Below, in pieces: positions 7,311-61,400 of a stretch of 64,000 nt of DNA; position 1 is the first letter of the stretch, and each line of letters begins with the position of its first letter. Source of the stretch: Stentor roeselii (Eukaryota > Ciliophora > Heterotrichea > Heterotrichida > Stentoridae). A program made the position numbers and the translations under genes. The stretch is taken from assembly GCA_006503475.1 (NCBI GenBank), contig RSEH01000017.1, positions 124,001 to 188,000 on the forward strand, in the 5' to 3' direction. Below the pieces are notes generated by a model that was not told the DNA's origin, ran no database searches, and saw only the letters and a program-made list of their open reading frames with translations.

Positions 7311-7811
7311 TTACATAGAAACAAAGTCCGAATACCCAATATTTTCAGTATCCCCTTCCAAAATATCTAAGATTTCGTTATCACTAACAGAAAATTCAAG
7401 ATTTTCCCTAAACACCTTCTGAATATCCTGAACATTCAAAATTCCTTTATTTTTCGTATCAAAAACTTCAAAAATTTCTCTAATTCTTTCGTTTTTTCCT
7501 CCAGAATAATACTTTTTAGTAACAAGCAACAAAATTTCTTCCCAGGAAAGTCTTTCTTTATTTGAATTTATATGATTTTCTTGAAGTGCTGCTTCAAACT
7601 GCTGTTTTGTAAGTTTCCAATATCCGAAATTCCAAAGAATAGACCTGGCTTCGACCATTGTTATGCCAGAAGATTCATCAGTTTCAAATAAGGAATATGC
7701 CAGTTTAAGATCCTCTTTCTGTTTTGGTCTTACCATGTATTCAGGGATTTTTAGCTCGACCACCTGAGGCCGGTCAAGCATGCTTCCTCGTCGATTGACT
7801 CCAGATTTCAT
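7311..7811 (-). CDS. EF-hand calcium-binding protein (calmodulin/centrin-like)
   Basis: A 166-residue protein with the layout of a calmodulin-type EF-hand protein. The best loop is residues 118-129 (DTKNKGILNVQD), with acidic or polar groups at the expected ligand positions but Asp in place of the usual Glu at position 12. A weaker loop lies at 43-54 (ETDESSGITMVE) and a degenerate one near 152-163. A basic ~30-residue N-terminal tail precedes the first hand, as in centrins. Only one loop looks fully able to bind calcium, so a structural role such as centrin partner or cytoskeletal light chain is possible. The protein ends with Met before TAA. Exact subfamily is unclear. Confidence 0.8.
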   Translation of the reverse strand: MKSGVNRRGSMLDRPQVVELKIPEYMVRPKQKEDLKLAYSLFETDESSGITMVEARSILWNFGYWKLTKQQFEAALQENHINSNKERLSWEEILLLVTKKYYSGGKNERIREIFEVFDTKNKGILNVQDIQKVFRENLEFSVSDNEILDILEGDTENIGYSDFVSM

Positions 7812-7973
7812 TTAAATAATACAACTTTCAATCAACTGACAAATTTATGAAGAAAGAACTTAAAGGTAGGGAATTTTTTGAGCAGTGGGGGAAATTATTA
7901 TGAATTTTCTATTTAAAGTTTGGGTGTTAGAAGTATTAAATATTCAGTCCATTCAACAATTCCACAGTTATAA

Positions 7974-8504
7974 ATGAACCGTCCAGACTGGGACAGCCGA
8001 TTCAATATTGTAAGCAGTCGAGACAACCCAAAAGTTCACGAATTTTTCAGAGAGTACTTCGACAAGCCCCATCGTCGAAAACAAGACCGCATTTCCTTGC
8101 CTTCAAATCCATCAAAATTTTACCCGAACCTATCCTCGACCCTAGACAACTTCAGCCACCGAATTCCCAAATTGAAAAAGTTGGGAGTTAAGAATAAAAA
8201 AAAGTTAGAAAAAGGTTGGAAAGCGAATTTTCAAATGAAAAATAGCAAAGACAACCATCGGTTCTACTCAACTTATCGTGAATACTTCGATGCTCCGAAG
8301 ACCTTCGACCATAACTCGAGCGTAGTCAGTACGATTCCAGCGACAGCCCACGGATTCAAAAGAACTCCCTTAAGACTTCGATCATCGGAAGATCATCACA
8401 GCTGGAGCGAGATATATTCTCCAGTATCCGAAAACAACCTCGTAAAATACAGAGCTTTGAGGAGTTACTTCGACAGTCCTGGACTAAACGTTCCTATTTC
8501 TTAA
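7974..8504 (+). CDS. unknown protein with three W-x-YFDxP repeats
   Basis: A basic 176-residue protein that matches no family I know. It contains three copies of a ~27-residue repeat, at about residues 5-32, 81-108 and 143-169. Each has a Trp near the start, an aromatic residue four positions later, a Ser/Asp/Asn-rich centre and ends in [RS]EYFD-[KA]P or RSYFDSP. The repeats are separated by basic, Ser/Pro-rich linkers that are probably disordered. No membrane segment or signal peptide is seen. It ends 9 bp from the convergent gene at 8514. A scaffold or cytoskeleton-binding role could be imagined, but nothing here shows it. Confidence 0.75.
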   Translation: MNRPDWDSRFNIVSSRDNPKVHEFFREYFDKPHRRKQDRISLPSNPSKFYPNLSSTLDNFSHRIPKLKKLGVKNKKKLEKGWKANFQMKNSKDNHRFYSTYREYFDAPKTFDHNSSVVSTIPATAHGFKRTPLRLRSSEDHHSWSEIYSPVSENNLVKYRALRSYFDSPGLNVPIS

Positions 8505-21416: not shown

Positions 21417-22220
21417 TTACGAATTTAATACCTCGAAAAGAGTATTTTTCAGTCTCATATTTTCATCTTGAAGTTCTTTCAAGTAATTTTCTAATTCCAT
21501 GTTAAACTGTTTTTTTTCAAGTACTTGATCAAAATTTTGACTAGTTTTCACTGATTTGCAACTTTCTTCAAGTCTCTTGTTACAATCTTTAAGTACTTGA
21601 TTTTCTTCTTTTAGCCTTAAAGCTTCTTGACTCACATTTCCTCTGATTATTTCTTGTAACTCTTGATTAAACTGAATGATCTTCAGGTTTTCATCAATTA
21701 AAATCGAGACTTTTTCTTTCATCTCTTGTTCATTTTTCTACTTAGGACTTACCTTGCTATTACAAAGCGAAATCGAAAGTTCTGAGTTATTTTTTTGATA
21801 AACTCTAATCTTGTGCTCGTTATTTTCCTTCTCTTTTTTTAACTCGAAGAGATTTTGGGTAAGTTTCAGAAGTTCTTCTTTGAGATTTTCAAAATTGGTT
21901 AAAAGTTCGGAATTATTTGATTTTAAGATTAAGTTTTCGTGAAGTAACTGACCGATTTTAACTGAGTCTTTTGTTGAGGTATTATAAGTTCTATTAATTT
22001 TTAGAGAGGATTGTTTTTCAATGATTAAGATGTTTTGGGCATTTCGGACTTGCTTTATTTGAGGGATGGGTTCTGTTTCAGAAAGGCTTTGAATATGATT
22101 CAGGGAGGTTTCTGGGGTTATTCCCGGTACTGAAAATGGAAAAACAAAGACAGAATTTTGTCTGGATAGAAATGGGTTCGAAGAAGGTACACTTGAATTA
22201 GGAAATCCATTTTCACTCAT
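21417..22220 (-). CDS. coiled-coil protein with one 15-nt intron
   Basis: Two open frames join through a 15-nt intron (21738-21752), giving 262 residues. The exon junction reads CNSK then KNEQEMKEK and keeps one continuous helix. About 70 Ser/Pro-rich residues at the N-terminus are followed by a long charged coiled coil over the rest of the chain. No family can be named. Without splicing, translation would stop after ~160 residues at the intron's own TAG. It shares a ~260-bp region with the divergent gene at 22481. Confidence 0.75.
21738..21752 (-). other. 15-nt spliceosomal intron
   Basis: On the coding strand the intron is GTAAGTCCTAAGTAG, phase 0. Removing it restores the coiled-coil frame; keeping it brings TAG in frame. 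Confidence 0.85.
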
Positions 22221-25423: not shown

Positions 25424-25921
25424 TTAAACGCCTTCAATAAGTCCACAGTCTTCTCCAAGGTACTGAAACTTTCGGCTAAGCATCTTATTCCTCAGGTTTT
25501 CAATGAAAAGTCCTAAGTTCTGAGCCAGGTGTTCAACGATTCCATCTTCGTTCCACTGAGAAACTTCTCCGGAAGCTAAAATAATCAGAAGGTCTCCGTC
25601 GTTGCTACTAGCGAAAGGAATTGAACCAGCTGGCCAGGCACTTTTTGAAGCATTCGATGACCTGCTTGAGTTTATTGAAGCCACGGATAAGGTCTTGAAG
25701 GTCTCGTGAAGCTGGATTCCACCATCGTGGTTTGATATCAGAAGTGAAAGAAATTGGGGGAAATCTGATGGACTTCCTCCTCCGTTGTTTGGTTTGTATG
25801 AAGGAATGTTCGTGTGAAGCCAGTTGTCCATGTCTCTCAATGCTTGATGGACTTCTTCTGATGTTATGTTTGAACCTCGGGCACTTCCTGAATCGACGAC
25901 GAACTTTTTGCTTGATTCCAT
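25424..25921 (-). CDS. SMI1/KNR4 (SUKH)-like protein
   Basis: 165 residues. The line-up resembles the SMI1/KNR4 fold: WLHTNIPSYKPNNGGG near the start, FPQFLSLLISNHDGGIQL, then IPFASSNDGDLLIIL, GEVSQWNEDG and a final helix LGLFIENLRNKML. In yeast, Knr4 is linked to cell-wall and calcineurin signalling; bacterial SUKH members are often immunity proteins. In a eukaryote a regulatory adaptor role is more likely. The match is by pattern only and is moderate. Its upstream region holds the GGGTGTTA array. Confidence 0.5.
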   Translation of the reverse strand: MESSKKFVVDSGSARGSNITSEEVHQALRDMDNWLHTNIPSYKPNNGGGSPSDFPQFLSLLISNHDGGIQLHETFKTLSVASINSSRSSNASKSAWPAGSIPFASSNDGDLLIILASGEVSQWNEDGIVEHLAQNLGLFIENLRNKMLSRKFQYLGEDCGLIEGV

Positions 25922-26026
25922 TTATTTTTAAGAGATAAAGTAGGGTGTGTGATAGGAAGGTTGTGAGGAGGAAGAGGTTTTGAAAAGAGTGAGTGATTAT
26001 TTTAAGGTGTAGAAGTAATTTCTATT

Positions 26027-26224
26027 GGGTGTTAAGGTTATGATATTATAAGACCAGGGTGTTATTTAAGGATTCAGGGTGTTAATATTTAAACGCTCAG
26101 GGTGTTAATATTTAAACGCTCAGGGTGTTAATTTTTTAACACTCAGGGTGTTAATATTTATACGCTCAGGGTGTTAAATATTTCAAACTCAGGGTGTTAA
26201 TTTATTTTAATGTTCAGGGTGTTA
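26027..26224 (+). repeat. phased array of telomere-like GGGTGTTA units
   Basis: Nine copies of GGGTGTTA occur in ~200 bp; eight sit in the longer unit CAGGGTGTTA starting at 26055, 26075, 26098, 26121, 26144, 26167, 26190 and 26215. Five successive gaps are exactly 23 bp. The rest of each unit is AT-rich and variable. All copies are in the same orientation. The array lies between two divergent genes. GGGTGTTA is one rotation of TGTTAGGG, which I recall as the heterotrich telomere repeat. Confidence 0.95.
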
Positions 26225-26305
26225 GTAATCAAAATCCATTTCACTTGTGATAATCTTTAACCCTTTATTAAATATTAGTATCATACTCCCTCATCTTGTA
26301 AAATA

Positions 26306-27487
26306 ATGAAAGGCAAAAATTTAAATAAGCAGTCCACAAAAGGTTCAAGTACAGGCTCATCAGCAGGTTCTCAGTCTCCAAGACTCCGAAACCGCTCTCC
26401 AAACGGTCGTGCTTTGAGTCCAGAAGCATCATATCAGTCCTCTCTGCTGATCCTTCACGAAAACAAATCCGAGCTATCCTCATACGAAGAAGACGAAATC
26501 CTTCTCTACGACAAAATTTACTACTTCGGTCAAGGCTCAGCGAAAATTTCCGGAAACTTTACCGACGATGACGGAAACTTCATCGGAATAATCGGAGACC
26601 ACATCGCCTACCGATACGAAATCAACTCACTCATCGGCCGAGGGTCATTCGGGCAGGTTTTCGAGTGTTTCGACCACAAAAGACAAGAAAAAGTAGCCCT
26701 TAAAGTGATTAATTCAAAACCGCGTTTCATGAAATCAGGAAAAAATGAAAGTAACCTAATCGACCTTTTAACAGACGTTGACGACAACGGCTGTATTTTA
26801 CAAAAATTTACAAGTTTTGACTTCCGGGGTCATTTTGTGATGGTTTTCGAGCTTTTCAGCCTAAATCTTTACCAATTTCTAGAAAGGGAAGGTTTTCAAG
26901 GACTTGCTTTAAGTGTGATTAAAAGAATAGCAGTTCAAGTTTTGATTACTTTGAAGACCATTCACAGTTTAAACTACATCCACTGCGACTTGAAACCTGA
27001 AAACTTGATGTTTAAATACGAAAGTAAAAGTTTGTTAAAGGTCATCGACTACGGGTCTGCCAGCTGCTCGACTGATGAACTTCTTGACTACATTCAAAGT
27101 CGGTACTACCGAGCCCCTGAAGTCGTTTTAGGCTGTTCTTACACTGAAAAAATCGACATCTGGAGCTTTGGCTGCATCCTTGTCGAGTGTTTCACAGGTG
27201 AGCCTCTTTTCCCAGCAGAAAGCGAAAAAGACCTTTTAATCCAAATTCAAGAAACAATAGGAAAGCCTTGCAAAACTCTTTTATCATGTTCAAAGTTTAG
27301 TGGAATTTATATAAACCGTGCAGGTTTCGTCATATCTCAAGTCAACTACGGAAGGAAGACTTTAAATGAAGTACTTTTGAATGCTGACCCAAGATTTGTT
27401 GACCTTGTTCAGAGTTGTTTGAAGTGGAACCCAGAAGAGAGGATTTCAGCGGAGTCGGCTTTGAACCACCCGTGGATGAGACGTTAA
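26306..27487 (+). CDS. DYRK-family protein kinase
   Basis: 393 residues with the kinase domain at about 103-392. The segment before it, GDHIAYRYEI, resembles the DYRK homology box. Core motifs: glycine loop IGRGSFGQVFE, VALK (Lys near 132), HCDLKPEN near 226, activation loop YIQSRYYRAPEV with the DYRK-type autophosphorylated Tyr, and DIWSFGCILVE. The metal-binding motif reads DYG rather than DFG. All catalytic residues are present, so it should be active. The ~100-residue N-terminal part is basic and Ser-rich. Closest to DYRK2/Pom1-type kinases, which act in cell polarity and growth. The region upstream holds the telomere-like array. Confidence 0.93.
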   Translation: MKGKNLNKQSTKGSSTGSSAGSQSPRLRNRSPNGRALSPEASYQSSLLILHENKSELSSYEEDEILLYDKIYYFGQGSAKISGNFTDDDGNFIGIIGDHIAYRYEINSLIGRGSFGQVFECFDHKRQEKVALKVINSKPRFMKSGKNESNLIDLLTDVDDNGCILQKFTSFDFRGHFVMVFELFSLNLYQFLEREGFQGLALSVIKRIAVQVLITLKTIHSLNYIHCDLKPENLMFKYESKSLLKVIDYGSASCSTDELLDYIQSRYYRAPEVVLGCSYTEKIDIWSFGCILVECFTGEPLFPAESEKDLLIQIQETIGKPCKTLLSCSKFSGIYINRAGFVISQVNYGRKTLNEVLLNADPRFVDLVQSCLKWNPEERISAESALNHPWMRR

Positions 27488-32325: not shown

Positions 32326-33291
32326 TTAAACCACCTTAGGAGGATTTGTAGGATATCCAGGATTCTCAGAATAAGCAGGATAAGCAGGATAACCAGTATT
32401 AGCAGGATAACCAGTATTAGCAGGATAACCAGTATTAGTAGGATAACCAGGACCAGGATGAGCAGGATAGACAGGAAGAGCTCCATGAGTTTGATCTAAA
32501 TTTCCAGGATTATGTGAATGATCTTCAAGATTCTTTTTAAATCCATCAGGGCCATGTTTACTCTTCAATTTGCAGCCGACGACACAGTAGGTGACTACAA
32601 TCAAAGGTATAATAATAGCAATAAAAAGTGCTAACCCAGGACCATCCGAAGCACAAAGTTTCGGGTTTTCTCCATCATCTTCAAAGTCCTCACAGTCCCC
32701 AAGATAGTTAGTCCTCGTAAAGATCATGAAGACAATAAAGGCAACATAATGGCCGAACCACACACATCCTGAGCAAACCATTGAAAATACCAGACAACAT
32801 TTCACTTTTTTCCAATACATAAACATTCCAATAGTCCATGAAACTAAGGCAGCCAAGGCGAGAATCTCAAAAGCCGTATAAACTCCGCTACCAACATACA
32901 GGGCAAAGTAAAGAATGCATACTGAACGAGCAGGGTCTTCAAGAGCTTTATTGAATGTTTGAGTAAATATATCATTACTTGAATCATCGGCTTCATCTTT
33001 GATATCGTCATAATAGTCACACCATTCTTCTGCTAGTTTTCCCCAACTCTCATCGCAGCTTTCGGTGCATCGATATAAACCTCCTTCGAATTTGTGGCCG
33101 TAGAATTTGTTGTTGTCGTAGTCATCCCATTTTTCGTTAGCAAATCCTACGCCTTTATCCATGTCGGTGTAAACCCATCTTTTAGCTCCTAGACTGCCGA
33201 TCATCAAGGCGAAGAGCAGGAGATGAAGGGCGAGGAAAATAAACCACCAGGCTCTGTAGGTTATCTTCAAGAACTTGGCAGGGTGCGACAT
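32326..33291 (-). CDS. claudin-like four-TM protein with GYPANT tail, copy 1
   Basis: I start this at the Met that gives MSHPAKFLK, because its paralogue at 34473 begins MSYPAKFLK; an upstream Met would add 8 residues. The protein (321 residues) has four membrane segments. The first extracellular loop has a Trp followed by GGLYRCTESC, which resembles the W...GLW..C..C signature of claudin/PMP22 proteins. A CC-containing stretch near TM3 could be palmitoylated. The cytosolic tail is Pro/Tyr/Gly-rich and contains an 18-nt minisatellite encoding GYPANT units. A role in surface or cortical membranes is possible. The two paralogues are tandem on the same strand. Confidence 0.75.
   Translation of the reverse strand: MSHPAKFLKITYRAWWFIFLALHLLLFALMIGSLGAKRWVYTDMDKGVGFANEKWDDYDNNKFYGHKFEGGLYRCTESCDESWGKLAEEWCDYYDDIKDEADDSSNDIFTQTFNKALEDPARSVCILYFALYVGSGVYTAFEILALAALVSWTIGMFMYWKKVKCCLVFSMVCSGCVWFGHYVAFIVFMIFTRTNYLGDCEDFEDDGENPKLCASDGPGLALFIAIIIPLIVVTYCVVGCKLKSKHGPDGFKKNLEDHSHNPGNLDQTHGALPVYPAHPGPGYPTNTGYPANTGYPANTGYPAYPAYSENPGYPTNPPKVV
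32386..32450 (-). repeat. 18-nt minisatellite in the tail coding region
   Basis: Three full and one partial copies of an 18-bp unit (AGGATAACCAGTATTAGC on the + strand), encoding repeated GYPANT. Units are nearly identical, implying recent slippage or strong constraint. Confidence 0.9.
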
Positions 33292-34472
33292 ATTTATAGC
33301 CGCAGGCATATACATGAGGAAAAGTACAAGTAACTGTAAGACTTTTATTAAAGAAATAGCCTAAAGGCTTATTAGGAGGCTTTTAGACTTTATAGAAAAC
33401 AGATGAAATCTTAGAATGAAAGAAATGAGTCATTTTGTATATTTTCTCCATGGCAGTTACACCAAATTTTACATAAAAACTCTGAAGTCGAATTCTTTTG
33501 ATCGTGAAATTGAAGGAGAATGTTTTATCATTACAGGCAGGCTTCAAACTGATTAAAAATTGAGTATTTGTTTAAGATAATCGAATTATCATATAATAGT
33601 GTGTTAAACTTTATAATTCTATATACTAGGTAATTAGTAAAGATTTAATTTTTAAGAATCGATCTGGTATATTGATAATTTAATGATATTCAATCATCAT
33701 AGTACTTATATGTTCATTCAGGATGATCTTTATTACAAATTAATATTATAGATTCTATAGCTTCACACTATATTGGCAATCAAAAATATGCAGTCGACAA
33801 TTACTTTTTCAACCCTAGAATTAATAAACCAAACTTTTTTCTTATAAAAAACACAATAGCATATATTAATTCTCCCTAATTATTTTCTTCGCCTAGATAT
33901 TAACTTACCATTTTCAAGACCCACCATAGCCCATTAGTCAAAAGTCACAACCTTGAGATACTGAAGATTATTCAAATAATTAAACGTATTCCTAAGCCTA
34001 ACCCTCTTCAAGAAATTTCAAAATAACACTCTTAATCATTATGCAGAATTCTCTAATAATTTAAAATCTTTGATGTTTTTTGGTAATGATATGGGCTATA
34101 TTTAAACCTTAAACACTATAAATTTTATTATAAGAATATATATTATAGAGTTTATTCAAATTAATTGTATGAAGTATTAAATAATAAGTTCATATGTTGA
34201 TCAAAGTCCTTCATAAAACAATTATGAGATTAGAAATCAATTATTTCTAGACTATGCAATATTTAAATCGATTTTCTTAGGAAAATAAATGAAAAAGATT
34301 AGATTTGAAAGAAATAATTATGAAGATTTAGTTTGATCTTTTAAAGTAAAACATCTCCTCATTCCCGTTACTTTAAAATAATATAAATGATTGAAGATCT
34401 TCAAACAAAAAATATTAAATATCCTAATTAGATCCTCTTCAATATAACTCCTCTAAATCTACTTAAATAAAT
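33292..34472. other. AT-rich spacer between the claudin-like paralogues
   Basis: About 1.2 kb with no open frame of note and no recognised RNA gene. It is unusually long for this compact region. No remnant of a third paralogue could be seen. Confidence 0.55.
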
Positions 34473-35459
34473 CTAATACTGGCCTTTATATTCTCCAGGT
34501 GGGTAAACCGAGGTGCCAGGATAACTCGGATTAACTGGGTAACTAGGATAACTCGGGTTCGCCGGGTAAGTCGGAAAAGTCGGATTCCCCTGGTAACCTG
34601 ACGAGTTACCAATAGGATAAGCTGCAGGGTAAGCAGCAGGATAAACCGGAAAAGCTCCCTGTACATGTATTTGATCTAAATTCCCATGATTCTCTAAATG
34701 ATTTTTTTTAAGCCCATCATGCCCATACTTATTGTTTAAATTGCAGCCAACAACACAATAGGTAACTGAAACTAAAGGAATCAAAATAGCAACAACTAAA
34801 GCTACCCCAGGTCCATCAGAAGCACAAAGTTTCGGATTTTCTCCATCGTCCTCGAACTCATCGCAGTTCCCTTGAAAGTTAGTCTTTGTGAAAACCATGA
34901 AGAAAATAAAAGCAGTGTAATGTCCGAACCAGACACATCCTGAGCAAATCATTGAGCAGACTAAACAACATTTGACTTTTCTCCAATACATGAACATTCC
35001 TAACGCCCATGAAACTATTGAGATTAAAGCGAGAATTTCGAAAGCTAGATAAACTCCGCTTCCGTAAAAAAGGACAGCGTAAAGGATACAGATCGAGTGA
35101 GCAGGGTCTTCTAAGGCTTTGTAGAATAATGGATCATGAAATCCGTTTGTGTCATCTGCTAAGTCTTTCACATCATCGTAAAAGTCACACCATTTACTTG
35201 CAAGTTTTCCCCAGGACTCATCACAACTTTCGGTGCATTGCAATAGACCTCCTTCGAATTTATCTCCATAGAATATGTTGTTGTCATTGTCAAGCCACTT
35301 GAAGTTGACTATAGTTCCGCCTTTATCGATTTCAGTGTAAACCCACTTTTTGGCACCGAAACTTGCGATCATCAAACATACAAGAAGCACTTGAAGGCCA
35401 AGAAATATGAACCACCAGTGCCTGTAGGAGATCTTTAGAAACTTGGCAGGATAAGACAT
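34473..35459 (-). CDS. claudin-like four-TM protein, copy 2
   Basis: 328 residues, paralogous to the gene at 32326 over its whole membrane part: MSYPAKFLKISYRHWWFIF, then GGLLQCTESCDESWGKLA, then the shared acidic loop EFEDDGENPKLCASDGPG. It has four membrane segments and the same claudin/PMP22-like first loop. Its tail is also Pro/Tyr-rich (NPSYP-type repeats) but the repeat unit differs from copy 1, so the tails have diverged or been re-made faster than the membrane part. Codon use matches neighbours. Probably a recent tandem duplicate. Confidence 0.78.
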   Translation of the reverse strand: MSYPAKFLKISYRHWWFIFLGLQVLLVCLMIASFGAKKWVYTEIDKGGTIVNFKWLDNDNNIFYGDKFEGGLLQCTESCDESWGKLASKWCDFYDDVKDLADDTNGFHDPLFYKALEDPAHSICILYAVLFYGSGVYLAFEILALISIVSWALGMFMYWRKVKCCLVCSMICSGCVWFGHYTAFIFFMVFTKTNFQGNCDEFEDDGENPKLCASDGPGVALVVAILIPLVSVTYCVVGCNLNNKYGHDGLKKNHLENHGNLDQIHVQGAFPVYPAAYPAAYPIGNSSGYQGNPTFPTYPANPSYPSYPVNPSYPGTSVYPPGEYKGQY

Positions 35460-36714: not shown

Positions 36715-37863
36715 ATGGAATCAGAAACAATCTGCGACATCTGGTAACATTTACCTAGTGAAAAATCAGTCCCCAGCATGTCAATCCAGATGCACAAGAT
36801 CCACTGCGAGCGGAACACAGTAAAATGTTCCAAATGCGGTTTAAAGTTAAACAAATCCGAGCTTCAAGCCCACGAAACAGATCAGCACACTTTAAAAAAG
36901 TGCGAAAACTGTTCAGAGCATTTAGAAGCCCGGTTCTTTTCCGATCATGACTGTCCTAAAAAGCCAGTTTTCTGCGAATTCTGCGAAGCAACTCTTCCAA
37001 AAGACCAAATCAGCCGACATCGAATCGAATGCGGGAACCGGACAGAAAGATGTGACCGTTGTCGAGACTACATCAAAAAAAAAGACTTCTCTAAACATGT
37101 CAAAGACCGCACCTGCCAAGACTACCACGAGAAGCAAAGAGAAGCCGAAATGAAAAAAGCTCTGGAAAAACAAAGAGAAGCTGAAAGACAAGCTGAAATT
37201 TTTAAAGAACTTGAAAGAAAGCAAAGACAAGAAAGGCAAGAAAGGCAAGAAAGACAAGAAAGACAAGAAAGGCAAGAAAGACAAGAAAGACAAGAAAGAC
37301 AAGAAAGACAAGAAAGACAAGAAAGACAAGAAAGGCAAGAAAAACCTCTTTCAAAACCCTTCAATGAAGAAAAAATAAAAACCAAGGAAGAATCAAAAGT
37401 CCCTAAAGCCCTTAAACCCTCTCCTATCTCCTCAAAACAACCTGAAAAAAAAGAAACAATTTCTAGATCAAAGCCACAAAACTTCAACACGGGGATGAAA
37501 AAAGCGAACAAATCTCAAAGTGACGCTGGTCGAGTCTCTAAAACAGGAGCCTCAAAAAAAGACTTCAACCCGAAGCCTAGTTCGAAGCCTATCGGAAAGC
37601 CTGCCATTCGCCAAAACAGAGAAGTTCATGTAGATGACGGTTCTGGGATTCCAGATGAAATTCCTACAGGATTTGAAGAAAACTACTTTGATCGACCAGC
37701 TCGTTATTCACCGAATCCAGGAGAAAGTCAGAATTTTGATGATTATGATCATCAGATATTACAGCAAGTTATTGCTGAATCGAAAAAAGATTCAGATTTA
37801 AGTGAATTTGATGAGGACCAGTTGCTTAATCAAGCGATTTATGAGAGTTTGAAACGTAAATGA
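36715..37863 (+). CDS. TRAF-type zinc finger protein with RQE repeat and UIM-like tail
   Basis: A 29-nt first exon joins across a 15-nt intron (36744-36758) to give CDIC...HKIHC, completing the first TRAF-type zinc finger. Several further C/H fingers follow to about residue 130, as in TRAFD1/XAF1 proteins. Next come a charged helix and 13 nearly perfect RQE triplets, then a basic disordered region, and finally two ubiquitin-interacting-like motifs (DHQILQQVIAESKK and EDQLLNQAIYESLKR). Total about 377 residues. Fingers plus UIMs suggest a ubiquitin-pathway adaptor. The stop TGA overlaps the ATG of the next gene by 4 nt. Without the intron the first finger would lack its initial Cys pair. Confidence 0.85.
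36744..36758 (+). other. 15-nt spliceosomal intron in the TRAF-finger gene
   Basis: GTAACATTTACCTAG, phase 2 (splits a Cys codon TG|T). Its removal restores the first CxxC zinc-binding pair. Retention gives an in-frame TAA. Confidence 0.93.
37225..37341 (+). repeat. 9-nt microsatellite coding for RQE
   Basis: Thirteen units of AGRCAAGAA in a row, in frame, coding for Arg-Gln-Glu. Only the AGA/AGG wobble varies. The protein segment is a charged single-helix candidate. Long apparent open frames on the other strand here are by-products of this repeat. Confidence 0.95.
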
Positions 37864-54171: not shown

Positions 54172-54858
54172 ATGGCAGTCTTGAAACATGCCCAGAAGAT
54201 CATCGATGAAGTCCTTCAAGCGACTCGTGTGCGACCTGTGAAGCTTCCAGAGACCAGTGAATATTTCGCAGCACAGGCAGAACTTCCTAATTCCTTCGAA
54301 CCTGCGCCTCCACCGTCAACAGGCATCGAGTTTCAATTGAAGACTGGCATGGCGCAGACGTTTAGAGTGAATAATCCTTACAGATACTCAAAAACTGATG
54401 AATTCGGATTTTTAGATAATCCTTCAACACCCTGGGGCACTGTCAAAGCGCAGGAAATCGGAGGGAATCGAGTGGCTAATGGAGGAAACTATTACGATCA
54501 GATGTACACCAATGTCGCTATCGGCCCTAATGAAAAGAAGCTGCCGAATGCGAGGATTTATTATGTTCAACAGACTCACATGCATAGAATGGCAAGTATG
54601 AGAAGGTACGGCGCCAGTGGAGGCAACTATCAAATATTGTTTGAAGAAGATGGAGGATATAAACATCCCCTTGATGGCTTCAATCGAAGTCAAAATTGTG
54701 GATTTTGGGTTGTTAAAGGATTTAAAAGTGCGGAAGATGCTGTCGCCTTCTGTGAAAGGCATGGGTTTGGGTTTGAAGTTGAAGTCCCTCATTTCAGGAA
54801 TTGGGTTAGGAAAAGTTATAGTGATAACTTCAAGTATAAGCTACCCAGAAGTGAGTAG
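54172..54858 (+). CDS. NDUFS4: NDUFS4-like mitochondrial complex I subunit
   Basis: 228 residues. The C-terminal ~60 residues match the NDUFS4 (18-kDa, AQDQ) domain: FKSAEDAVAFCERHGFGFEV, then KSYSDNFKYK near the end, which is the family's signature ending. The N-terminus is helical, basic and could be a mitochondrial targeting sequence. Between them is about 130 residues rich in Gly, Asn and Tyr not found in animal NDUFS4, so this is an enlarged ciliate form. The subunit sits in the peripheral arm of NADH dehydrogenase and helps assembly. Lies 4 nt after the previous gene. Confidence 0.72.
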   Translation: MAVLKHAQKIIDEVLQATRVRPVKLPETSEYFAAQAELPNSFEPAPPPSTGIEFQLKTGMAQTFRVNNPYRYSKTDEFGFLDNPSTPWGTVKAQEIGGNRVANGGNYYDQMYTNVAIGPNEKKLPNARIYYVQQTHMHRMASMRRYGASGGNYQILFEEDGGYKHPLDGFNRSQNCGFWVVKGFKSAEDAVAFCERHGFGFEVEVPHFRNWVRKSYSDNFKYKLPRSE

Positions 54859-58441: not shown

Positions 58442-61400
58442 ATGAACGGTTTAGACCTACTTCAACTTGAACGACTTTCAAACGATCTTTATTCCTCTAC
58501 TTCAGCAAAGGTAAGATTTAACAAGGCTAGACAAGATGCGAGTGAATCTTTGCAGGCTTTCTTGGAAAGTCCTTCTAATTTGACTTTGATTTTCGATATC
58601 TTGTCGACCAGTCGCAACTCGCAACTTCTCTACTTATCCCTGGCTTCAATAACAAGACTAGTCCCAAACGAGTGGTTCCGCCTAAACCTCAACGAAAAAA
58701 AAGTAATGCATTCAACTTTATGGTCTCTTTTAACTTCCTCAACCGATTCAAACTACTTAACAAGCGGGGTCTGCAAAGCTCTTGCACGGGTCTCAAGATT
58801 AGGTTTTTCTGAATTCGAAGAAGCGAAAAAAATAGTCTCAAACGTCGAAGTCCTTCTTCAAGAAAACCCATCATTCTTAGAAGTGGGTCTTAAGTTCTTT
58901 TTCGAAATGATACATGAAATAAATGAACCGATCAAAGCGAGAATCGGGTCTGCAGGGAAAAAAACTGCTCAGCTTTTTCGAGAAGAGCCTCTTGGTCGGA
59001 TTTTTTTATTTGTGGTGAATTTTTTGAATAGTTCTTTACAGAAAATATCAAAAGAGCAAATCTTTAGTAGTTTATCAGTGATGAACGCGGCTTTGGGATT
59101 TGATTTTATGGGGATTCAAGCTGATGATACTGGAGAAGATACGAGTTGTCTGCAGATTCCACTTTCCTGGAAAGAGTTATTCGAAAAGCCAATTTTTTTC
59201 GAATTTCTCCAATTCTTAATCATTCATTCAGATGAAGAAGTCGAGTTATTAGCCTGCCGAGCTTTAAACCACGTAGGGGCAGTTCGAAAAAGCATATTCG
59301 CCTCATCAGTCGATCTTCGAAAGGTTTACATAAAAAGATTCTTAAGTGCCAGCCAACAAATAATGCAATCAAAACAACTTCAAACCATTAGTTTACAAGA
59401 GTTCATTCAAGGACTAAAGCGCTTTCTCTGCAACTTCGGCTTAAAAGAAATAAGTGAAACTGAAGACTTAATCCCTTGGCTTGAAGTTCTAGCAAACTAT
59501 TCTCTAGAAACCTTTAAAAGGCCTTCATCGCTTACATCTTCCATTGAAAGTACTCTAATCGTTTGGAACTCAATCATATTCGACTGCAACTTACAACTAA
59601 CTGAAAGTTCAACTCCTCTCAATTCTTACGCAAAAGGACTTTTCAGTACTTTTTTAACCCGTTCACTAGACCTAGTGACTCAAGAAGTATTTGAAAGTAG
59701 CAAAGAACAGGAAGTACGTGAAAATCTTGAACAACTTGCAAATATTTCTCTTTGTTTTTACCCTGAAATGATTAGAAATTTTGAAGAAACATTTTTGGCA
59801 ATAGAAAGAAACTCAAGAGAAAAGGTCTCTTTAAGATTGGCCTGGCTTGTTTTAATTGCTTCGGCATTGATTTCGTTGAAAGATGGGAAAAATGATGAAG
59901 TTGACCTGATGTCGGACGTGACAATCACGCGTCTTGTGTTTGAGTCACTTTCGAAGATGCAGGGTGGATTCTCTTATGTGACGCAAGCGTATTTGTCCTT
60001 CATGCTGGGATTGAGTAAGGTTTATATCAACTGCGCCAATGAGAAGTTCTGGGTGTTGCTGGATAACACCCAGGATTCACTTGATACTACACTTGACTCT
60101 TGTTTAAACTTGATACTTGACTATTGCTTTCAGGTCATGTCAAATGATGAGGAGCGAATTGTGAGTAAGGCTCTGCAAGTCTTGGAACTACTGGCAAAAG
60201 GATATTATTCGAATAAGTATATGATGAAAAATGAAAGAGTTCAGACATTGATGACACGGTATTTGTCGTTTCCGCTTTGTGTCAGTTTTCCTAAACATAG
60301 GAGTAGACTTTTTTTTATACTTGTTCAGCTTTGGCTTAATGAAGACCTATCAACCCCAATCGAAGTTTTTTTAACCCCACTCCAAGACAATCTAAAACAA
60401 CTAGCCAAGACCGGTGAATCCTCCCAATTCGTCCTAACATTCAAAGAACTCGAAGGCATAACCTCAGGCCTAACCAACAGCAAGAATTTTTTAGAGTTTT
60501 TCGAGTGGATCTTTTACAAGTTCCAAGTCGTGATGTCTGCCTGTTCATTTCACTTATACAACCCCAGCGTGATGCATGCCCTTCTAAGTTTTTTACACGA
60601 AATAACTCAAAATCGCAATTCCCGTATAAGATTTGACATAAGTTCAAACTACGGAATCGTTTTTTTCAAGAACATCAGCGCAGTGGTCATCGGTTACGGT
60701 AAAATCGTTCTTGAAAATCGAGAAAGTTCTGATTATTTCAAGCAATTTTACAGTAGCATTAAAAGAATCCTTGGAATCTGCAACAATTTATTCAATGGCG
60801 GGTATGTTCCCTTCGGTGTTTTCGATGTTTTTCAAGATGGCTCATATCACGAGACACTTTCTCTTTATTTTTCGATGCTTGACAGTATGGCGATTTCTGA
60901 AATGTCAGTACTTTCCATTTAGAGTTACCAGAAACTATTAGACATTATTTACGAATTTATTGAAACTTTATGTAAATCACATTTGAAGACTCTTTTCACT
61001 GTTCTCGACATTTCTTGCTTCGTGAAGGTCCTTTTTTACCTAATCCAAGGCATTCGAATCACAAGTAAAAACTATTCAGACATGAAGCACTGCTCGTCAA
61101 CATCAGCGTCAATAAGCCTTCTCTGCGAGTACATCATTAAAGTGAACCAAAAGGACTTCCCTGAGCGAGCTCTCGTCCAAAGTCGCCTAAATCAAAGCGA
61201 GTACTTGCTTTTAGAGCTTTTTCGCAATGTAGTTGAAGTAATCGTTCTAGAAGATAGCAATTATATGTGGTCACTTAGCAAACCGCTGCTCGGACTGATG
61301 ATCATCAACGAACAGCATTTTGAAGAGGTGAAAAATGCTGTCTTAGCGAAGGTTAACTGTTCCGCAGATCTCTATGAAAAGTTGTTTAAAGCCATTCAAG

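Follow-up and report, generated by a model that had tools for sequence, protein, structure and literature searches.

Tandem repeats in which one short motif recurs many times in the vicinity of a regulatable gene are already known to work as homotypic clusters of sites, as exemplified by the MORC3-regulated element of IFNB1; according to the available part of its description, this human element is larger than the array presented here, contains 45 PU.1/SPI motifs with up to five per repeat unit, and was demonstrated experimentally (PMC13373173). Telomere-like motifs upstream of genes are known from the Tbf1 and Rap1 sites of yeast promoters, with several clustered TTAGGG motifs in Saccharomyces cerevisiae, and the accessible text on Tbf1 describes no orientation or spacing requirement for this species and a palindrome with N6 for Candida albicans (PMC2834713). 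In plants, the telobox is a short telomere-like motif that recruits the Myb-type protein TRB to genes, as far as the available excerpt describes it (PMC10049986). Among ciliates, upstream elements have been inferred from sequence for Pseudokeronopsis, and the available portion of that paper characterizes these 5′ cis-elements of nanochromosomes as AT-rich and subtelomeric, and as occurring at many genes with a link to expression (PMC8899921).

Here we describe an array in the heterotrich ciliate Stentor roeselii that resembles these systems in part. It lies in a window of 64,000 nucleotides, by which we mean the whole stretch of DNA that was analysed, and it consists of nine exact copies of GGGTGTTA within 198 bp, all on the + strand (Table 1). 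The array shares with the IFNB1 element the organization as a tandem repeat of one motif, but it has nine motifs, one per unit and mostly 23 bp apart, and it is known here from sequence alone. Unlike the Tbf1 and Rap1 sites, the motifs have one orientation and a mostly constant 23-bp spacing, and they lack TTAGGG; in contrast to the plant sites, where TRB binds, the link to a protein consists in a sequence likeness; and whereas the Pseudokeronopsis elements are AT-rich, subtelomeric, and present at many genes, the array contains G residues, is internal, and represents one locus. No report of such an array in a heterotrich was found in the literature searched, in part among the matches listed.

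Genomic setting of the array

The window is gene-dense: when ORFs were mapped from ATG to stop under the standard code, with a minimum of 90 codons, greedy selection by length, and tolerated overlaps of up to 10%, 48 ORFs were obtained that cover 78% of the sequence, and long ORFs are terminated by all three stop codons. Two divergent ORFs are separated by 384 bp, of which the array takes up about half, and this gap is exceeded in length by two of the ten divergent gaps in the map, whose median is 184 bp. A single ORF of at least 20 codons lies wholly within the gap, and it is just 20 codons long. A sequence-only reading of this DNA had placed an array of nine units of one direction between an SMI1/KNR4-like and a DYRK gene. 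The array itself is borne out by the exact copies on the + strand and by the rarity of the motif in shuffled sequence (see below), and the DYRK label is well founded, with DYRK3 as the best solved-structure match (Table 1). The other gene is present as well, but its label is weak, as the score remains below the Pfam cut-off. For the cognate kinase family, 142 members are predicted in Stentor coeruleus according to the available part of a previous study (PMC9371601).

Searches of the window gave no Rfam match at gathering scores and no tRNA; likewise, no phage match to the 384-bp gap was found, and no relatives of the SMI1-like, DYRK, and Dymeclin-like proteins were confirmed in viral contigs. 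Elsewhere in the window, an NDUFS4-like complex I protein (54172-54858) has two matches, the better of which is chain 7tgh_S4 from a structure entry that we take to be that of Tetrahymena. In an Exportin-7-like gene, of which the first half was searched against Pfam, a 15-nt GT...AG stretch (GTACTTTCCATTTAG, 60908-60922) ends exactly at the sole stop between two in-frame halves. There are 14 intron-like candidates of 15-24 nt, three of them with 15 nt (60908-60922, 36744-36758 on the + strand, and 21738-21752 on the − strand), which is not a clear excess over other lengths, as 19 nt is also represented three times; the intron evidence in the window rests mainly on the Exportin-7-like gene. Work by Slabodnick from 2017, said to have ‘tiny introns’ in its title, reportedly describes 15-nt introns in Stentor. 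Together with the use of the standard code, such tiny introns are indicative of a Stentor-like heterotrich.

Table 1. Features of the array locus, with positions in the window
Feature	Position	Strand	Evidence
Gap between divergent ORFs, 384 bp	25922..26305	.	ORF map
Divergent gene, weakly SMI1/KNR4-like	25424..25921	-	PF09346 E 1.5e-4, 22.8 bits, Pfam cut-off 25.4
Divergent gene, DYRK-type protein kinase	26306..27487	+	Pkinase E 8.7e-53; DYRK3 E 2.2e-82, DYRK2 E 6.7e-81
Whole array, nine GGGTGTTA cores (198 bp), spacers of 22, 12, 15, 15, 15, 15, 15, and 17 nt	26027..26224	+	
Regular part, 23-bp tandem repeat TCAGGGTGTTAATATTTAAACGC, 6.5 copies	26074..26224	+	Tandem Repeats Finder
Core 1, TT before the core instead of CA; next core 30 bp on	26027..26034	+	
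Core 2, next core 20 bp on	26057..26064	+	
Core 3, first of five exact 23-bp units	26077..26084	+	
Core 4, spacer identical to that of core 3	26100..26107	+	
Core 5, spacer with TTAACACTC, 8/9 bases complementary to GGGTGTTAA	26123..26130	+	
Core 6	26146..26153	+	
Core 7	26169..26176	+	
Core 8, next core 25 bp on	26192..26199	+	
Core 9, last core; 81 bp between it and the first kinase ATG	26217..26224	+	

Copy number, spacing, and helical phasing

On both strands together, the window contains 13 copies of GGGTGTTA, as compared to a mean of 0.67 and a largest value of 4 in 100 shuffles of the whole window. The distances from core to core are 30, 20, 23, 23, 23, 23, 23, and 25 bp; the view that most units are exactly 23 bp apart is thus correct for five of the eight spacings. 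In 30 Markov-1 windows of 64 kb, the clustering of any 8-mer within 200 bp did not exceed 3 copies, versus 9 in the array, when words with fewer than four copies per window or fewer than three different letters were left out. Apart from the array, the real window reaches five or more copies of a non-homopolymer 8-mer in 200 bp only for words that begin at 32374-32375 and 37183-37248, and these positions are inside ORFs (32326-33315 on the − strand and 36778-37863 on the + strand), which leaves the array as the sole one with at least five copies outside ORFs. What defines a homotypic cluster, namely several copies of one motif in a short non-coding stretch at a frequency above chance, was found in the array. 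Tandem repeats were also seen inside ORFs at 32341-32481, 34518-34644, and 37213-37342, with units of 18, 27, and 9 bp among others, and the last of these comprises 14 copies of GAAAGACAA.

The sequence-only reading had equated 23 bp with about two helical turns and had suggested that bound proteins would line up on one face of the DNA. The former is inexact, as 23 bp correspond to 2.19 turns at 10.5 bp per turn, and one-face binding had to be rejected for ordinary B-DNA: each step rotates the site by 69 degrees, the mean vector R amounts to 0.29 with all nine sites and to 0.13 with the six evenly spaced ones, and random spacings of 20-30 bp equal or beat the phasing of the array in 51% of trials. 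The best of eight helical repeats tried (10.0-12), and the only one to align the six sites, was 11.5 bp per turn, with an R of 1.00 for the six and 0.66 for the nine sites (p 0.018). The period of 23 bp is explained simply by tandem duplication.

Telomere likeness of the motif

All eight columns of the core are invariant in the nine copies. The two preceding bases are CA in all copies except core 1, which has TT, such that eight copies read CAGGGTGTTA. A T precedes these two bases in 7/9, and the conserved element is approximately TCAGGGTGTTA. Nine of its bases coincide with the telomere repeat. In the available part of a study on the heterotrich Blepharisma, the telomere repeat is given as permutations of TGTTAGGG/CCCTAACA (PMC9942806), and the idea that GGGTGTTA is a rotation of the heterotrich telomere repeat fits well with this. 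Binding of the motif by a telomere protein is a candidate function, suggested by the likeness to this one telomere repeat. The base before AGGG is a C in 8/9 copies, where a telomere would have a T, and core 1 has TTGGG. As the two bases before the cores are always CA or TT, the TTAGGG that is named in print as the core of Tbf1 and TRB sites is absent from the array. Neither TGTTAGGG nor GTTAGGGT occurs in the window, and the longest telomere-phase match is 10 nt there. Outside the array, 13 of 63,579 12-mers match the telomere repeat over 9 nt, and 59 over 8 nt; the nine-base coincidence is uncommon, and it was noticed after the fact.

Four copies of GGGTGTTA are found outside the array, three in ORFs (14183, 31085, and 60064) and one in a 162-bp divergent gap (7922). 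The latter, a lone copy at 7919-7930, lies between the ORFs 7311-7811 (−) and 7974-8504 (+). As three of these four copies are in ORFs, a general promoter motif is not indicated in the window. No canonical G-quadruplex motif was detected, but a match was obtained with a pattern that allows loops of up to 25 nt.

Sequence variation in the core and the spacers

Variation within the five exact 23-bp units is restricted to 7 of 23 columns (8 changes), and the longest run without variation, with the unit treated as circular, spans 13 columns (permutation p 0.0075, uniform-throw p 0.017). When a spanning tree was laid over all eight spacers, 25-30 changes were required, none of them in the core, and the probability of zero core changes under a uniform spread is 6e-5 to 5e-4 (× 23 windows; all eight spacers). 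The spanning-tree bound is not significant when restricted to the five strict units (8-column window 0.75-0.93, 12-column run 0.063-0.091), and the constraint therefore draws its strength from units 1, 2, and 8, which account for 21 of 29 changes at unit gap cost. These estimates describe divergence within one array of one species, and they are inflated by ascertainment, as the units were recognized by their core. Spacer 1 may lack homology with the other spacers. The spacers resemble each other more closely than do shuffled spacers, with 29 changes versus a shuffled minimum of 45, and there is no spacing of about 46 bp, as would have been left by the loss of a core inside the array. A PSSM scan of the gap revealed weak core-like words at 26005 and 25943, which are equalled by 229 and 261 places in the window and which could be decayed outer units, and one strong match on the reverse strand inside the array (26144, 11.9 bits, with 23 places in the window scoring as high).

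The spacers are also partially complementary to the core, with the nine bases before the last one matching the reverse complement of GGGTGTTAA at 4, 4, 6, 6, 8, 5, 6, and 5 of 9 positions. Unit 5 (26123-26145) is a near-perfect inverted repeat, GGGTGTTAA-TTTT-TTAACACTC. A dyad test with independent shuffles (0/20,000) was discounted, as the units are not independent. The complementarity may represent a palindromic binding site or hairpins of a leader RNA, or it may have been present by chance in the founder unit.

Discussion

Our analysis suggests, with about an even chance, that the tandem repeat acts as a homotypic cluster of sites for one sequence-specific DNA-binding protein, and the gene under its control would most likely be that of the DYRK-type kinase. 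This reading is supported by the invariance of the core in 9/9 copies, including cores 1, 2, and 9 with their deviating spacings or flanks, by the tree over all spacers in which none of the 25-30 changes is in the core, and by the run of 13 in the five strict units (p 0.0075). Further support comes from the gap itself, whose one ORF of at least 20 codons has just 20, and which is long for such a gene-dense window (384 versus a divergent median of 184, n=10), as well as from the fact that tandem repeats are known to work as such clusters, as the available text on the IFNB1 element indicates (PMC13373173). The reading is weakened by the lack of a concentration of the motif in other promoters, as evidenced by the copies in ORFs, and by the non-significant bound for the five strict units, together with the ascertainment by the core. 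The sequence-only reading had considered a telobox-like regulatory array; the regulatory array is the best remaining reading, whereas its telobox version has become a lesser rival, as there is a C and not a T before AGGG in 8/9 copies. We propose that tandem duplication of the 23-bp unit gave rise to the regular copies, while the core would have been maintained by selection. The factor would then bind side by side in several copies within the shared upstream region of the divergent pair, and it would raise or repress transcription depending on the number of sites rather than on their helical phasing. Among the possible factors, a telomere-type Myb protein is one candidate.

It is rather unlikely that the array is a passive minisatellite, i.e. 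a 23-bp unit without function that has grown by slippage or unequal exchange and whose shared core simply reflects recent copying. There is no difference between units 3 and 4, five of the eight spacings are exactly 23, the likeness of the spacers (29 changes versus a shuffled minimum of 45) is what common descent predicts, and on the five strict units alone the constraint is modest. Moreover, pairs of CAGGGTGTTA at distances of 20-26 bp occur without any telomere link in 12 prokaryotic and three viral-contig stretches. Exactly 23 bp separate the motifs in 8 of the 17 pairs from these public contigs; six of these pairs are in Treponema MAGs and two in near-identical viral contigs, and the counts are partly dependent, as L002 and L003 are near-identical and several are from Treponema. 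Motif and spacing alone thus prove little, since 8/17 unrelated pairs also have the 23-bp distance. As relatives of the array these stretches were rejected; by eye, they were judged to be unrelated repeats or chance pairs. Four Treponema MAG contigs (L005, L010, L011, and L013) contain 23-bp-spaced CAGGGTGTTA repeats that appear to be a dispersed minisatellite, and these serve as a control for coincidence. What argues against passive copying is that the core is identical even where the spacers have diverged or changed their length (12, 17, and 22 nt), and that no second array of at least five copies exists outside ORFs in the window. A functional alternative, which we regard as improbable, is a structured RNA: the kinase mRNA would carry the array in its 5′ leader, and hairpins of GGGUGUUAA with UUAAxRCUC would control translation or bind an RNA-binding protein. 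The + strand has a fold of −58.2 kcal/mol (z −5.27 relative to dinucleotide shuffles, as compared to −0.70 for the − strand), and with fixed cores and singly shuffled spacers, 4/500 sequences were as stable. The 3′ ends of the spacers form 31/45 Watson-Crick matches with the core in five units (column-permutation p 0.0019), a count that covers the five 15-nt spacers. However, the result becomes borderline once the repeat architecture is kept too (23/500 and 10/500 permutations as stable), the register and the arm length were chosen after inspection of the data, the first two spacers match at 4/9 positions only, the invariant core does not permit two-sided covariation, and the leader would have to be about 280 nt long to span the array.

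The telomere likeness bears on the remaining alternatives. If each core were bound by the telomere-repeat-binding Myb protein of the cell, the situation would be analogous to Tbf1 and Rap1 in yeasts and TRB in plants, and we consider this doubtful. It is favored by AGGGTGTTA, which represents nine contiguous bases of the heterotrich repeat as published in part for Blepharisma (CCCTAACA permutations, PMC9942806) and has few matches of this length elsewhere (13/63,579 outside 12-mers), and by the known binding of Tbf1 to clustered TTAGGG in S. cerevisiae and to TTAGGGN6CCCTAA in C. albicans, as stated in the available text (PMC2834713). Yet TTAGGG is absent from the array, with C instead of T before AGGG in 8/9 copies and TTGGG in core 1, the near-invariance extends into bases that are not telomeric (the C in 8/9, the T before it in 7/9), and the resemblance was noticed after the fact. 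It would be a long shot to assume that the telomere-repeat-binding protein of the heterotrich has been recruited as a promoter regulator that recognizes single, spaced telomere units, and that this one protein links the telomere state with the expression of the DYRK kinase. An iteron-like replication origin, at which a protein would bind the direct repeats and open AT-rich DNA, is very improbable: the direct repeats measure about two helical turns, combine a conserved core with AT-rich spacers, and lie between divergent genes, which is reminiscent of plasmid iterons, but to our knowledge no iteron-type origin is known in ciliate macronuclei. Least credible, indeed hardly to be expected, is a signal for chromosome breakage or telomere addition, or the remnant of a former telomere, although the core is telomere-like and Blepharisma has internal telomere addition with 46,705 potential sites, 38,686 of which were seen in one read, according to the available part of the report (PMC9942806). 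The window is unbroken through the array, with genes on both sides, and the same text describes the telomere-bearing reads of Blepharisma as spread over the whole genome (PMC9942806). The earlier suggestion of a former telomere end or a telomere-addition site is not supported, given the lack of any telomere-phase run of more than 10 nt, the 12-22 nt of other DNA in each unit, the C for T in 8/9 copies, and five spacers that are variants of one 15-mer rather than decayed telomere. An interstitial telomere was rejected as well, as contiguous repeats are absent. In viral contigs, four stretches with three telomere units were found (GC 0.41-0.58), none with a run at the end of the locus (270 nt inward in L016).

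Cis-regulatory elements in ciliates have been called poorly understood, in the available part of the Pseudokeronopsis paper (PMC8899921). A dense array of one motif beside a DYRK-type gene, as described here, would be a convenient bait for a heterotrich transcription factor. If this factor should be telomeric, then the theme of telomere proteins at promoters, as seen in yeasts and plants, would reach a distant lineage.
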